Position numbers and translations under genes: made by a program. A stretch of DNA of 22,790 nt from a virus. Shown here in pieces: positions 3,789-17,649 of this stretch (positions are counted from its first letter, which is position 1; each line of letters starts with the position of its first letter). The notes beneath the pieces are model-generated. The model did no database searches. It was not told where the DNA came from and saw nothing but the letters and a program-made list of their open reading frames with translations. The stretch spans positions 1 through 22,790 of IMG/VR virus record IMGVR_UViG_3300030102_006515. One strand, 5' to 3'.

Positions 3789-6353
3789 ATGTCAAAAGCT
3801 TCTCAAGAACCCAATAATCATCTCAAAGCAGGACAAATCAATTTTGATTTAATACCTAGGGATTGGGCATTGACACCATTACAAGGTAAAAGAGCGTATA
3901 TTGCAGGTTGGACATCACAACCCTACACAATAGATGAAATAAAACGTGAGTTTGATCAGGGAAAGGCAACAGGTATAGGTTTAATAACAGGTGTTTGGTC
4001 TAACAAAGGAGGTTTAATTTGGGTAGATATTGACGGGCCAGAGGCTTTAAAAGATTTAGAGGAGTTAGCAGGAGCTCCCTTATCAGCTGCATTTCCTCCT
4101 ACCTTAACGATCTCCTCTGGTAAAGAATCAAGGCAACGTATGTTGTTTAGTATTCCAGCAGAAAAACTACCTTTGATACCAGATAAGGCAACAATAAAAA
4201 TTGGAATTCCTTCTTTTGAAATTTTATTTAGATCAAGGCAAGGGGCTATCATGGGAAGTCACCCAGAGACTAGCGGATATTTCACCACGCCTCATGGTGG
4301 CTTTGAATATGCTAAGAACCCTCCTGAACTCCCACAGTGGCTTTACGATGCAATTGTAAAAGCATACCCACTAAATAAATATAAAAAACCTATTAAGGAA
4401 GGAATATTAACCCAACAAGTAAATATTGATTATGAAGAAGATTCGGAGTATCAACAAGAATCTTATATTAATGATGCAAAAATTTATTTAGATCATCTTA
4501 ATTTAGAAAGAGCACAAGAATATGACTCATGGGTAAAGGTCGGAATGTGTTTAAAACAAATTGATGATACTTTACTTTCAGAATGGATTGACTGGTCAAA
4601 GCAAGCAGAAAATTTTGAGGAAGGTGCTTGCGAAAAAAAATGGAATACCTTTGAAGTAGTTGATGGAGGTCCTAACCCAGAAAATCATTGTGGACTTCAT
4701 CATTTAAGAGCAATGGCAAAAGAGGATGGATATGTAGATATTGGTGGATTTGTCGTTGAAAGTGGTAAATCATTAAAAGAAAAAGCCAAAAAGTTATTTG
4801 AAAATGATAATTCAGTTCCTGTGAATGTTGTTGACGATGTACTAAATGAAATACTAGGCCAACCTACTAATAAAGAATTAAGAGAAGTTTCACAAAAAAT
4901 ACAAAATAAAAGTAAACCAAAAACACCACCTGCATCTGAACTCTCAGAACATGTAACACCAATGGTAATTGAGTGTGGTTGGAGATATGATCCTAAATAT
5001 GATACCTTTATGTTCTACCAGTCCTCTAAAGGTACTTGGAGAAGAGAGGAATATAGAACAGAGTATAAACATTTTGTACAAGACTTATTTTTAAGAGAAA
5101 GTATACCTACACCAAGTGGCTTTACCTCACATCTTTTATCAGATGTTGTAAATCTTACACAAGCATATATTACTCAACCATATTGGAATGATGATCCTGA
5201 TAAGTTAGCTTTCAGAAATGGTGTCCTAGAAATGAGCACAGGAGAGTTTTTAGATCATGACCCTGAGCATTATTTAACTTGGGGTTTAGATTTTGATTAT
5301 GATCCTCAAGCAGACAGCGGACCTATTATTGAATGGTTGAAAAAAACTCAATATGGTGATTTAGAAAGAGTTCAAGTATTAAGAGCATGGTTAAAAGCTT
5401 GTTTAGTCGGTAAAGGCCATGAACTACAAAGATTCTTAGAAGTAATAGGACCTGGAGGTAGGGGTAAATCAACATTTGCTAATCTTTGCTGTGCTTTGGT
5501 TGGTAATGGTAATTATGCTAGTACAACATTAAATCAATTAGAGCAAAGTAGATTTGAAATTGCTTCAATAAAAGGAAAAAGATTAACTTTAATAAATGAT
5601 TCAGAAAGATATGGTGGTTCTGCTCAAATTTTTAAAGCTTTAACTGGAGGAGATAATCTAAGATTTGAGGAAAAAAATAAAAATGTTGGTGAACCATTTG
5701 TATATACAGGAATGGTTATGGTCTGTGCTAATGAACCAATTCAAACAACAGATAATACTTCTGGTTTAACACGAAGGAGACTAACTGTTGAATTTAACAG
5801 ACCATTATGGGATAAAAATTCTGAAGCAGTGGAAATGATAAAACTTGAAAATGGTGAAGTAAATGGCTTATGGAAGAGTTATTTACCAGGCTTAGTTAAT
5901 TGGGTTTTAGAAATGAAAACACAAGAAATGCGTGAATATTTATTAGATACTTATGAGAAAGTAAAACATTTAAAAGGTGTAAGAAATAATATTTTACTTA
6001 CAAGTAATAATTTAGTTGAATGGTTACAATCAGAGGTGGTTCATGATGATAAGGCCGTATCTGCTGTAGGTAAAAAAATTCCCGCTTCAAAAGAGTCAAA
6101 AGAAAGATATTGTAATACTAATTTTCATCTCTATGCAAGTTATTGTTCGTATTGTGAAGACACAGGATCAAAACCAGTAGGGCAAAAAAGATTTATAGCT
6201 CTTCTATTAGATTGTTGTAGAAATCAATTAGGACTTAAAGAGATAAAACAGTTTAGTCAAAAAGGTAGACCTTTCATTAAAGGTTTGGCAATAAGAAATT
6301 CAGATGTGAAATATAAAAATAAAGAAACTATATTACCAGAAAAGCAGTCATAG
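3789..6353 (+). CDS. Primase-helicase: AEP prim-pol, PriCT-2, D5-type SF3 helicase
   Basis: An 854-residue replication protein that would make primers and unwind DNA at the fork. Residues about 20-195 are an archaeo-eukaryotic primase/bifunctional prim-pol domain: the metal-binding DxD is D80-I-D82 in WVDIDG and the sxH motif is GSH at 156-158. Residues about 228-310 match PriCT-2 (DAKIYLDHLNLERAQEYDSW and the conserved Trp/Phe pattern WNTFE). A linker and D5_N-like region follow, then an SF3 helicase ATPase: Walker A GPGGRGKST (554-562), Walker B-like LTLINDSE (599-606), sensor-1 CANEP, and arginine finger TRRRL (661-665). All key residues look intact. This fusion is common in phages, plasmids and satellites and often initiates at an origin on the same molecule. 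The start is the ATG at 3789. Confidence 0.9.
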   Translation: MSKASQEPNNHLKAGQINFDLIPRDWALTPLQGKRAYIAGWTSQPYTIDEIKREFDQGKATGIGLITGVWSNKGGLIWVDIDGPEALKDLEELAGAPLSAAFPPTLTISSGKESRQRMLFSIPAEKLPLIPDKATIKIGIPSFEILFRSRQGAIMGSHPETSGYFTTPHGGFEYAKNPPELPQWLYDAIVKAYPLNKYKKPIKEGILTQQVNIDYEEDSEYQQESYINDAKIYLDHLNLERAQEYDSWVKVGMCLKQIDDTLLSEWIDWSKQAENFEEGACEKKWNTFEVVDGGPNPENHCGLHHLRAMAKEDGYVDIGGFVVESGKSLKEKAKKLFENDNSVPVNVVDDVLNEILGQPTNKELREVSQKIQNKSKPKTPPASELSEHVTPMVIECGWRYDPKYDTFMFYQSSKGTWRREEYRTEYKHFVQDLFLRESIPTPSGFTSHLLSDVVNLTQAYITQPYWNDDPDKLAFRNGVLEMSTGEFLDHDPEHYLTWGLDFDYDPQADSGPIIEWLKKTQYGDLERVQVLRAWLKACLVGKGHELQRFLEVIGPGGRGKSTFANLCCALVGNGNYASTTLNQLEQSRFEIASIKGKRLTLINDSERYGGSAQIFKALTGGDNLRFEEKNKNVGEPFVYTGMVMVCANEPIQTTDNTSGLTRRRLTVEFNRPLWDKNSEAVEMIKLENGEVNGLWKSYLPGLVNWVLEMKTQEMREYLLDTYEKVKHLKGVRNNILLTSNNLVEWLQSEVVHDDKAVSAVGKKIPASKESKERYCNTNFHLYASYCSYCEDTGSKPVGQKRFIALLLDCCRNQLGLKEIKQFSQKGRPFIKGLAIRNSDVKYKNKETILPEKQS

Positions 6354-6411
6354 CAGTAGACATAAGAAATATTTATACCTTATATAGGCAATATTAAGTT
6401 ATGTAAACTTG

Positions 6412-6428
6412 TGTTACAAAGTGTAACA
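6412..6428. promoter_or_regulatory. Inverted repeat upstream of the Hli operon
   Basis: TGTTAC (6412-6417) and GTAACA (6423-6428) are a perfect 6-bp inverted repeat with a five-base spacer, 33 bases before the first Hli ATG. A TAAAAT element (6433-6438) just downstream could be a -10 box. The repeat therefore sits where an operator would act on the Hli cassette. It does not fit the NtcA consensus GTA-N8-TAC. Confidence 0.4.
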
Positions 6429-6460
6429 TTGTTAAAATATAAAGAAGATATAAATACCTA

Positions 6461-6652
6461 ATGACAACAGTTACAGAAAGTGGCGGTCGCCAAAACATCT
6501 ATTCAGTTGAACCTGTCACTGATGTTGACCCGAATTATCAAGGCTATCCAGAAGAGGCTGAAAAAGCTAATGGACGCTGGGCAATGATCGGTTTTGTAGC
6601 TTTATTAGGTGCTTATTCAACAACAGGTCAGATTATTCCTGGCATTTTTTAA
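6461..6652 (+). CDS. hli: High-light-inducible protein 1 (63 aa)
   Basis: A one-helix chlorophyll-binding stress protein of the Hli family, acting in the thylakoid membrane near photosystem II to dissipate excess light energy. The C-terminal half has the full signature: EKANGRWAMIGF, with the chlorophyll-ligand Glu and its salt-bridge Arg both present, then a transmembrane helix (VALLGAYSTTG) and the TGQIIPGIF end common to marine picocyanobacterial and cyanophage Hlis. The N-terminal 30 residues are a soluble extension. It is the first of four consecutive Hli genes and the only one with both key residues. The next gene starts 20 bases later. Confidence 0.93.
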   Translation: MTTVTESGGRQNIYSVEPVTDVDPNYQGYPEEAEKANGRWAMIGFVALLGAYSTTGQIIPGIF

Positions 6653-6672
6653 ATTAAAACCCCTTTTTTATC

Positions 6673-6780
6673 ATGACTCCTGAAGCAGAAAGATTTAACG
6701 GCTGGGCAGCAATGCTTGGATTCGTAGCAGCAGTTGGTGCTTACGCAACAACAGGTAATATAATTCCTGGAATATTCTAA
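6673..6780 (+). CDS. hli: High-light-inducible protein 2 (35 aa)
   Basis: A minimal Hli of 35 residues starting MTPEAERFNGWAAMLGF and ending TTGNIIPGIF. The ligand Glu and Asn are kept (ERFNG) but the Arg of the NGR signature is Trp. It has a single transmembrane helix, almost nothing outside it, and would have to pair with another Hli or a photosystem subunit. It is too short to be found by length alone. Its TAA stop overlaps the next ATG by one base (TAATG). Confidence 0.9.
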   Translation: MTPEAERFNGWAAMLGFVAAVGAYATTGNIIPGIF

Positions 6781-6893
6781 TGAATAATAAAGATATATTT
6801 TTTAAAGCACAAGGACGAGCAGCAATGATGGGTTTCATCATTATCTGCACAGTTTATGGCTTAACAGGTCAATTAATTCCAGGCTTTGTGTAA
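6780..6893 (+). CDS. hli: High-light-inducible protein 3 (37 aa)
   Basis: A 37-residue Hli: FKAQGRAAMMGF followed by a hydrophobic helix (IIICTVYGLTG) and QLIPGFV. The Arg of the signature is present, but the ligand Glu is replaced by Phe8 and Asn by Gln11. This is the reverse of its neighbours, which keep Glu and lose Arg. The start overlaps the preceding stop by one base, and the stop overlaps the next start the same way, so expression is likely coupled. Confidence 0.85.
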   Translation: MNNKDIFFKAQGRAAMMGFIIICTVYGLTGQLIPGFV

Positions 6894-7036
6894 TGGATAT
6901 TCAATCTTATTCTAAACCAATCGAAAAGCAAAAAATAATTGCTGAAAGATTAAATGGACAATTAGCAATGTTAGGTGTTGTTGCTGCAGTTGGTGCTTAC
7001 CTAACTACAGGTCAATTAATACCTGGATTTATTTAA
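6893..7036 (+). CDS. hli: High-light-inducible protein 4 (47 aa)
   Basis: A 47-residue Hli: a soluble N-terminus (MDIQSYSKPIEKQK), then AERLNGQLAMLGVVAAVGAY and TTGQLIPGFI. The ligand Glu and Asn are present, the signature Arg is Gln. One transmembrane helix. The start is coupled to the preceding gene by a TAATG overlap, and its own stop overlaps the start at 7036 in the same way. Confidence 0.9.
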   Translation: MDIQSYSKPIEKQKIIAERLNGQLAMLGVVAAVGAYLTTGQLIPGFI

Positions 7037-7203
7037 TGGGATTTGAAGATCCTTATTCAATCCCCTCTTCTATGGCAGTACTATGGGTTTTATATCCCAT
7101 AGGCTCTCTAGTTTTAATAGAACTAATACTTAGAGCTATCGACGATGATGATGATGATCAAGGCGGTGGCGTTATGTCTCCTGTTTATCAACCAATACGA
7201 TGA
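7036..7203 (+). CDS. Small membrane protein with poly-Asp tail, in Hli operon (55 aa)
   Basis: Fifty-five residues: a short polar start, a transmembrane helix at about 12-33 (MAVLWVLYPIGSLVLIELIL), then Arg-Ala-Ile, six consecutive Asp (36-41), a Gly-rich turn and PVYQPIR. The acidic run just after the membrane helix could bind metal ions or sit against a positively charged partner. Start and stop overlap the neighbouring genes (TAATG and ATGA). I do not recognise a named photosystem subunit. Tight coupling to four Hli genes suggests a thylakoid function; that is inference. Confidence 0.7.
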   Translation: MGFEDPYSIPSSMAVLWVLYPIGSLVLIELILRAIDDDDDDQGGGVMSPVYQPIR

Positions 7204-7274
7204 ATCACATTCTTTTCACAATCTTAATTTCACTTTATCTTCTTACTAATGCTGGTTCAGCGGTATTTGCGTGA
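7200..7274 (+). CDS. Very short hydrophobic peptide in Hli operon (24 aa)
   Basis: The peptide MNHILFTILISLYLLTNAGS plus AVFA is nearly all one membrane helix; it also resembles a bare signal peptide ending in a signal-peptidase-like AVFA. The start overlaps the previous stop by four bases (ATGA) and the stop overlaps the next start (GTGA). Position in an unbroken chain of coupled genes is the main reason to think it is translated. No family recognised. Confidence 0.45.
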   Translation: MNHILFTILISLYLLTNAGSAVFA

Positions 7275-7372
7275 GAAAAATTTTTTACAGTCCCTATTAC
7301 TCATTATTTGAGTTTTTTTTCTTTGTTATTGTTGGTACAATAGCGGGAATGAGTGGCCTGTTAGAAGTATAA
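7271..7372 (+). CDS. Very short membrane peptide, GTG start (33 aa)
   Basis: Thirty-three residues with a Phe-rich single membrane helix (FEFFFFVIVGTIAGMSG). The start is a GTG overlapping the previous stop by four bases. It is the last gene of the coupled chain; the next ORF begins 34 bases later. Size and single-helix form resemble small photosystem or cytochrome b6f subunits, but I see no signature that identifies one. Confidence 0.45.
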   Translation: MRKIFYSPYYSLFEFFFFVIVGTIAGMSGLLEV

Positions 7373-7406
7373 ATAATAAAATTAAAATAGAAATACTAAT
7401 ACTTTA

Positions 7407-7538
7407 ATGCAAACTTATAAATTGAAAAATTTACCTTTTTTTACAGAGGCTAAGTTAATTTTAGAAAATAAAAAAAATCAAACAAAAGACACTAATCAAA
7501 AATGGTTTAAAGGCAGTAAAGATAGAGGTCTGAAATAA
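7407..7538 (+). CDS. Unknown small basic ORF (43 aa)
   Basis: A 43-residue Lys-rich ORF beginning MQTYKLKNLPFFTEAKLILE and ending KWFKGSKDRGLK. No membrane segment. It follows the Hli cassette on the same strand and ends two bases before the convergent gene that closes at 7541. No obvious Shine-Dalgarno. Composition is plausible for a real protein but the evidence is weak. Confidence 0.4.
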   Translation: MQTYKLKNLPFFTEAKLILENKKNQTKDTNQKWFKGSKDRGLK

Positions 7539-7540
7539 TT

Positions 7541-7882
7541 TTATTTATTGTGTTTATGCTGAGGATAATCTTTTTCCATAGCTTTTTTAGATAAATTAGG
7601 TCTTGCACCACCACCTTCATGTCCGTGAGCAATCCCTAATTCGTGTAATCTAGAATGCTCTTTAATTTCATCTCTTAAATCTTTACCACCTTTACCAAAA
7701 GTCATATAAATACCATAAATCATTAAAAATAAAACTAAAAATCCAAGAAAAACAGCAAAAGCAGCTCCCTGTCCTAAATGTCCATGAGGTATTAAAGTAT
7801 CATTACAACGTGCGATTTTATCTTGATCAATCCAAGTTCCTGGTAAAGTATAAACAGGAGGACATGATAAGAAATAATTCAT
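7541..7882 (-). CDS. Single-pass membrane protein, His-rich (113 aa)
   Basis: A 113-residue protein. The N-terminal 38 residues are polar with Cys7 and Cys26 and an HGH motif (33-35); one transmembrane helix lies at about 39-62 (AAFAVFLGFLVLFLMIYGIY); then a charged helix and a His/Gly segment AHGHEGGG (85-92) and a basic His-containing tail (PQHKHNK). Clustered His could bind metal, but no known site is recognisable. It is coupled to the upstream 67-aa gene by an ATGA overlap at 7879-7882 and is the last gene of the tail-fibre strand block. Family unknown to me. Confidence 0.7.
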   Translation of the reverse strand: MNYFLSCPPVYTLPGTWIDQDKIARCNDTLIPHGHLGQGAAFAVFLGFLVLFLMIYGIYMTFGKGGKDLRDEIKEHSRLHELGIAHGHEGGGARPNLSKKAMEKDYPQHKHNK

Positions 7883-16876: not shown

Positions 16877-17039
16877 GGATTTAATAGAAAATTATACACC
16901 AGAATTGCAATTATTAGACGCATTGGAGTATCTTAAGGATCAACCTTGGCTCGCTTCGGAGATCCTAGACCACTTGGCTTCTCATTCCAGTAACGAAAAA
17001 AACGACGTAGCACCTCCCCAGAAGGGTCTAATTCTATAA
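16866..17039 (+). CDS. Small ORF overlapping the lysozyme gene antisense (57 aa)
   Basis: Fifty-seven residues, MKYEDLIENYTPELQLLDAL then EYLKDQPWLASEILDHLA and a polar tail. It starts 11 bases before the Nmad1 stop and ends 107 bases inside the lysozyme gene on the other strand. The helical, acidic N-terminal 45 residues look like a real small phage protein. The long convergent overlap is unusual, so the ORF may be genuine with a recently extended 3' end, or spurious. Confidence 0.4.
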   Translation: MKYEDLIENYTPELQLLDALEYLKDQPWLASEILDHLASHSSNEKNDVAPPQKGLIL

Positions 17040-17649
17040 ATTTTTTTTCTAAGTACTCAATACCTTTGATCTGATTAGAAGAACCATTGTAGGTTTCGAC
17101 CAAATTTAAAAGACATACCTTAGCATGACAGGAGTGTTTATAAAATGTAGGTATTTCTTTATCTGCAGCAAAAAACATATCTAGCTCTGCTCTTCTTCGA
17201 GCAATCATTAAATCGCCTCCAGACATCCAGTAAGTATTTATATACGGACTCCACTCTTTTATAATTTTATTTTTAGATGCATAACTATTAATTAAATCTA
17301 ATAATTTGCAATTTTTAAATGATTGTATTCCAATACTATAAGCAAAACTTAAAATAGCAGCTCTTCTATTAGTATTTAAACTTACAAAAACATAATTATT
17401 TAATTTACTTGAAAAATTTTTTAAATCTAAATAAAACTGTTTATCTACCTCTTTTTGTGTAGCTTTATCGTTTGCTTTTAAAAAGTGACCATTTATTTCT
17501 TTACTTCCATAACCTATTTTCCAAGAATCCTCACCAAAGTCTTTGTAAGTTGCATACCTACCCAAACCTAAGTATGTTCTGGCTACAGTGTAAGATTTAG
17601 TTAATTTATAACCTTTTTCTGAAAAGAATAAATATTTATGGTACGTCAA
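16933..17649 (-). CDS. GH24-type phage lysozyme (endolysin), divergent
   Basis: 238 residues. The catalytic Glu is E11 in SEKGYKLT, followed by YKDF with D37, WKIGYG (43-48), the central LNTNRRAAILSFAYSIG and KLLDLINSYA, and ARRRAELDMFF, all hallmarks of T4/lambdoid GH24 muramidases that cleave the bacterial cell wall at lysis. Two departures: an insertion of about 17 residues between E11 and D37, where the family usually has about eight, and Lys44 where the third catalytic residue Thr (WTIGYG) is expected. The C-terminal 60 residues are an added tail. There is no signal peptide, so it would need a holin; a small membrane peptide is encoded upstream in the same operon. Overlaps the preceding gene by 14 bases. 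Confidence 0.8.
   Translation of the reverse strand: MTYHKYLFFSEKGYKLTKSYTVARTYLGLGRYATYKDFGEDSWKIGYGSKEINGHFLKANDKATQKEVDKQFYLDLKNFSSKLNNYVFVSLNTNRRAAILSFAYSIGIQSFKNCKLLDLINSYASKNKIIKEWSPYINTYWMSGGDLMIARRRAELDMFFAADKEIPTFYKHSCHAKVCLLNLVETYNGSSNQIKGIEYLEKKFIELDPSGEVLRRFFRYWNEKPSGLGSPKRAKVDP

Follow-up and report, generated by a model that had tools for sequence, protein, structure and literature searches.

Conserved hli-linked micro-proteins with a predicted membrane helix in a probably coupled, proposed photosynthesis cassette of an S-EIV1-like cyanophage

Layout of the cassette

The window, that is, the whole stretch of 22,790 nt that was analysed (IMG/VR record IMGVR_UViG_3300030102_006515, positions 1 to 22,790), contained a gene run at 6461-7372. 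Four hli genes (6461-7036) were followed by open reading frames of 55, 24 and 33 codons (7036-7372), which are called P55, P24 and P33 here. The run was located immediately 3' of a primase gene (3789-6353). The features were as follows.

6412-6428, no strand assigned: palindrome TGTTACAAAGTGTAACA (TGTTACAAARTGTAACA, core TTACAAARTGTAA), 47 nt 5' of hli1
6461-6652, plus strand: hli1, 63 aa, canonical ExxNGRxAM; phrog_178, E 2e-26
6673-6780, plus strand: hli2, 35 aa, ExxNGW (Arg lost); phrog_178, E 2e-19
6780-6893, plus strand: hli3, 37 aa, FxxQGR (Glu lost), TAATG overlap with hli2; phrog_178, E 2e-12
6893-7036, plus strand: hli4, 47 aa, ExxNGQ (Arg lost), TAATG overlap with hli3; phrog_20629, E 1e-20
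7036-7203, plus strand: P55, 55-aa one-helix protein with an Asp6-Gln-Gly3 tail, TAATG overlap with hli4; phrog_7843, E 4e-21
7200-7274, plus strand: P24, 24-aa hydrophobic micro-protein, ATGA overlap with P55; conserved in length and position, dN/dS 0.26
7271-7372, plus strand: P33, 33-aa one-helix protein, GTG start, GTGA overlap with P24; phrog_17067, E 0.0014

Five of the six junctions overlapped, by 1 or 4 nt (TAATG at 6780, 6893 and 7036, ATGA at 7200 and GTGA at 7271), since hli1 and hli2 were separated by a 20-nt gap. The original prediction had described this layout, and its coordinates and five stop-start overlaps were all exact on re-reading. It had also described the 55-residue protein as one helix plus six Asp. 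The six Asp were consecutive, and the AlphaFold2 model gave a single helix at residues 11-35. A single helix was also modelled for P33 (residues 8-32). No clear Shine-Dalgarno sequence was found at the six start codons after hli1 (0/6), which fitted reinitiation coupling without proving it.

All four hli products matched the cyanophage Hli family profile phrog_178, with hli4 also assigned to phrog_20629. The chlorophyll-binding motif ExxNGRxAM was complete only in hli1. The motif losses in the other paralogues (6673-7036) were complementary: hli2 (NGW) and hli4 (NGQ) kept Glu and lost Arg, and hli3 (FxxQGR) lost Glu and kept Arg. An F/LxxQGR hli was followed by an ExxNGQ hli in all ordered loci where F/LxxQGR was seen. 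This pattern suggests possible obligate heterodimers; shared ancestry of these loci is also possible. Beyond the cassette, the opposite strand encoded a 113-aa one-helix protein (7541-7882, minus strand; phrog_8051), whose match to PsbN was sub-threshold (E 0.0007). Relatives keep this gene next to the cassette and in the same opposing orientation.

Conservation and selection of the small genes

Scans of IMG/VR yielded 111 distinct P33 loci, 97 of them with enough upstream sequence. A short way upstream of P33, P55 was present in 89/97 loci and hli in 89/97. P33 was confirmed in 89 viral stretches. The order of P55, P24 and P33 behind hli recurred in about 100 viral loci, and it was found in P-SSM4, P-SSM3, P-RSM3, S-SSM4, MED4-213, P-HM2, P-SSM2 and P-TIM68. 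The P55-P33 pair enclosed a hydrophobic ORF of 22-27 aa in every case (99/99), against 108 of 9480 random windows (about 1%). The commonest spacings were -4 nt between P24 and P33 and -1 or -4 nt between P55 and P24. In several relatives with the same genes, gaps of 25-70 nt replaced the overlaps at some junctions, so strict coupling was not universal.

Summed pairwise dN/dS in frame was 0.26 for P24, 0.11-0.18 for P33 and 0.17-0.24 for P55. With the frame shifted, these sequences gave 0.58-3.6; the sequence pairs are non-independent, and the contrast between in-frame and shifted values is large. These results show that P55, P24 and P33 are real, conserved genes under purifying selection. The original prediction would have been refuted by a lack of conservation near hli or by dN/dS near 1. 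The order was kept and dN/dS was 0.11-0.26, and the reading of the region as one overlapping gene run with three small ORFs conserved beside hli was borne out.

Of 69 distinct viral loci, 65 had a P24 of exactly 24 aa. Loci that the first P24 profile missed almost always contained a diverged ORF of 24-25 aa in the gap. No CDS was annotated at the P24 position in eight cyanophage records, and tblastn with the 24-aa peptide alone gave no match; the family was recovered only via synteny and profiles. At one locus (L142, 8836-8973), a further hli followed P24 in the place of P33. A fourth micro-protein family (26-31 aa, xPxKxVPYIF) was seen in T4-like phages, often between hli and P55 with a TAATG overlap (L003 2652-2747, L005 2829-2918, L007 3457-3549, L266 2977-3057). 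It may have a relative in the host, and it matches the preprotein of the 'esterase' T4-GC438 at the N-terminus.

P55 and P33 in host genomes

The phrog_7843 profile covered P55 residues 8-53, which include the helix and the Asp-run tail. P55 was aligned with the T4-GC437 members of P-SSM4 (PSSM4_181) and P-HM2 (PHM2_202). A study of 2008 had already described a host P55, PMED4_15491 of Prochlorococcus MED4, as homologous to PSSM4_181 and PSSM2_278 (PMC2518516), and both of these were P55 members in the present comparison. The P55 family is thus already known as a phage and host ORF, and the suggestion that it was undescribed did not hold.

The phage P33 profile matched 143/400 genomes of the family of Prochlorococcus AG-418-C09, and each genome with a match measured 0.9-2.0 Mb. 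With host sequences added to the profile, P33 was found in 80 of the 101 genomes of the genus of this strain, and P55 at E <= 1e-8 in 74 of the 101; many of these genomes are incomplete or appear so. Weak P55 matches in genomes above 2 Mb (E 1e-4 to 1e-7) were left aside, as the Asp run may drive them. The host copies of P55 and P33 were clearly chromosomal, on contigs of 1.7-2.0 Mb. Three host loci (L255, L256, L273) carried hli-hli-P55-P33-hli clusters with TAATG overlaps as in the phage cassette. Other host loci had stand-alone P33 or P55 copies in varied contexts, and no photosystem genes lay beside the stand-alone copies in the loci examined. P55 and P33 were thus widespread in Prochlorococcus, hli clusters included, which meant that they were host-shared auxiliary genes. 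The original prediction had suggested that all three may be phage peptides, and this did not apply to these two families.

No host homologue of P24 was found outside a phage contig. Its sole match, in a Prochlorococcus single-cell genome (G001, from which the genus of the host genomes was taken), was on a contig listed as a virus in IMG/VR, so P24 looks phage-specific at the present sensitivity. The contig (C3; L078 / L238) is 189 kb long, and its presence in this genome means that phage genes can pass for host matches.

Association of P33 with psbA

P33 was aligned with PHM2_203 and PSSM2_279.1, and the profile that it matched, phrog_17067, corresponds to T4-GC594. Its cyanophage matches (E 9e-8 to 9e-7) were mostly without annotation; only some of the eight cyanophage records annotate it (T4-GC594 in P-HM2 and P-SSM2). 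Phage and host P33 shared the invariant motif E-F-x-F-F-x-x-x-G-x-x-A-G-x-x-G (Glu14, Phe15, Phe17, Phe18, Gly22, Ala25, Gly26, Gly29). This would give a membrane-edge Glu and a small-residue face, suited to helix packing or pigment contact.

In 24 IMG/VR contigs (L082-L088, L210, L291-L309, L313, L315-L318), which together held at least 10 distinct P33 sequences, the start of P33 lay at -1 (TAATG) or 0 nt from the stop codon of psbA. One of these, L210, carried both an hli-cassette P33 and a psbA-coupled P33, with a PhotoRC-II leader just 5' of its psbA. The position on the psbA stop codon points to photosystem II (PSII), and this independent association with psbA is the strongest functional clue. 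We considered whether P33 is the 33-aa Yfr6 peptide described for Prochlorococcus, and rejected this. The published description is of a leader RNA family, and no Downstream-peptide RNA (Rfam) was found before host P33 at the scanned loci L255, L261, L262, L265 and L268.

Virus lineage and upstream palindrome

The best isolate match of the primase was Synechococcus phage S-EIV1 (34% over 98%). The virus of the window is a marine relative of S-EIV1 and not T4-like. The 69 related primase loci in IMG/VR indicate that S-EIV1-like phages form a sizeable group in sea water; S-EIV1 itself is a freshwater phage. Ninety loci carrying the primase were compared within their fetched flanks. Where the primase was at least 81% identical to that of the window (and in L026, at 59%), hli-P55-P24-P33 lay behind it unless the locus piece ended; the exception among the cassette carriers was L142, with hli instead of P33. 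Among the loci with a primase of 74-79% identity, some had one or three hli, six of them together with a divergent P55, and others had none. At 72% or below, neither cassette nor hli was found within the fetched flank. P55-P24-P33 of the S-EIV1-like lineage formed one clade (support 0.995) nested among the T4-like cassettes, which was consistent with one acquisition. T4-like cyanophages appear to have passed the cassette to this lineage on a single occasion.

The palindrome core TTACAAA(N0-2)TGTAA occurred once in the window. In the 69 primase-scan loci it had 15 matches, all of them (15/15) within 200 nt 5' of hli, hli-only loci included. In the S-EIV1-like phages, the palindrome lay 47-86 nt 5' of hli (the window, L010, L011, L016, L101, L102 and others). 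It is likely an operator or promoter element of the cassette, at which a regulator of the phage or of the host might act. The T4-like loci examined had a TTGACA/TATAAT-like sequence upstream of the cassette where the S-EIV1-like ones had the palindrome. Two other promoter candidates were rejected. The T4-type late promoter TATAAATA at 6449 occurred 7 times in the window against 4.8 expected, and sigma-70 promoters in 6300-7600 gave fewer matches than in shuffles.

Proposed function and alternatives

We propose that the run is a polycistronic auxiliary cassette for PSII upkeep during infection, and that it is probably one coupled translational unit, expressed during infection of a picocyanobacterium. 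Its four high-light-inducible proteins and three one-helix membrane micro-proteins would insert into the thylakoid membrane and help PSII to keep working. Chlorophyll binding and quenching would be the task of the Hlips, while P33, possibly aided by P55 and P24, would assist D1/PSII assembly or repair. The cassette appears to have moved into the S-EIV1-like phage lineage. We infer membrane insertion, reinitiation coupling and the PSII role. The set ratios of one-helix proteins that the original prediction had suggested may likewise result from the cassette. A more specific proposal, which we hold tentatively, sees in P33, P55 and P24 low-molecular-mass thylakoid proteins of Prochlorococcus and its phages that have so far gone unrecognised and that work alongside D1 and Hlips when PSII is assembled or repaired; phages would carry them as micro-auxiliary genes and meter them by stop-start coupling to hli or psbA.

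The main rival that remains is hitch-hiking with hli. On this view, Prochlorococcus uses the micro-proteins generally in its membranes or under stress (as envelope-stress or regulatory peptides, for instance); they would accompany hli because genes are often exchanged at hli clusters, and would have no direct photosystem role. We consider this rather unlikely, with real arguments on its side: none of P33, P24 and P55 matched a photosystem subunit, the stand-alone host copies lie in varied contexts, and some hli genes are located in genomic islands (PMC2518516). It is opposed by the repeated placement of P33 on the psbA stop codon, and by the order and hli overlaps, which different phage lineages and the host clusters have in common. 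The original prediction had suggested undescribed photosystem-associated phage peptides. The 24 contigs in which P33 abuts psbA, and the presence of P55 and P33 in host hli clusters, lend independent support to a photosystem association; of the three families, P24 and P33 appear to be undescribed in the literature available. A lysis function of P24 or P33 (pinholin or antiholin-like peptides late in the operon) would agree with their small size and single hydrophobic helix, and it is very improbable. The endolysin (16933-17649) is encoded on the other strand at a distance of about 10 kb; P33 and P55 are chromosomal in Prochlorococcus, and the genes that regularly accompany them are hli and psbA rather than lysozyme.

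The overlaps could also mainly reflect genome compaction, with independent initiation of each cistron and no set ratio. This competes only with the coupling part of our proposal and is compatible with a PSII role. We regard it as a serious possibility, short of an even chance. The 20-nt hli1-hli2 gap and the 25-70-nt gaps in relatives agree with it, whereas the lack of Shine-Dalgarno sequences and the dominance of -1/-4 overlaps argue for coupling. Finally, the very short ORFs, the GTG start of P33 and the missing annotation in most cyanophage records might suggest that these frames arose by chance or are decaying within A+T-rich spacer DNA. This explanation is excluded by selection and synteny: the dN/dS values with their frame controls, the exact length conservation, the 99/99 position and the host homologues all refute it.

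Significance

Few photosynthetic systems on Earth are as abundant as Prochlorococcus and its phages, and the photosynthesis genes that phages carry serve as a model for how viruses take over metabolism. For years, most annotations have overlooked conserved photosynthesis-linked genes of 24-38 codons, and the original prediction was right in pointing to neglected, conserved hli-linked membrane peptides. In the phages as well as in the host, they are concrete candidates for a part in PSII repair that can be put to the test, with coupling to psbA and hli as the functional clue.

Comparison with known systems

The micro-proteins of the cassette share with PsbI, PsbJ, PsbT and PsaM-type subunits a size of 30-60 aa, one membrane helix and a presumed thylakoid context, but no detectable sequence similarity. 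Pfam, NCBIfam and PDB searches gave no significant similarity of P33, P24 and P55 to photosystem subunits and no entry matching P33 or P24. Without relatives of known function, they cannot be filed as known photosystem subunits. The likeness to PMED4_15491 (PMC2518516) concerns P55 only. In the literature available, no earlier description of P24, P33 or the hli/psbA coupling was found, and these, together with the spread into a non-T4 lineage, appear to be undescribed. Infection in the light is known to raise host hli and psbA transcripts (PMC5082946); hypothetical proteins were excluded from several supplementary tables of that study, and no expression, proteomic or interaction data for P55, P24 or P33 were found in the literature available.

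Like the psbA/D1 auxiliary genes of cyanophages, which P33 adjoins in the 24 contigs, the cassette consists of phage-borne genes linked to photosynthesis. The window itself has no psbA. In most cyanophage records with a P33 match, P33 is unannotated, T4-GC594 apart. The closest parallel is the hli cassette of T4-like cyanophages (P-SSM4, P-SSM3, P-RSM3, P-HM2, MED4-213, P-SSM2; T4-GC 267/436/437/594). It has the same hli-...-P55-P24-P33 order, with stop-start overlaps at most junctions as in the window. In the T4-like phages, the 'esterase' T4-GC438 comes next, then psbA in several, and the promoter region is TTGACA/TATAAT-like. In contrast, the cassette of the window stands behind a D5-type primase in an S-EIV1-like phage, with the palindrome upstream.
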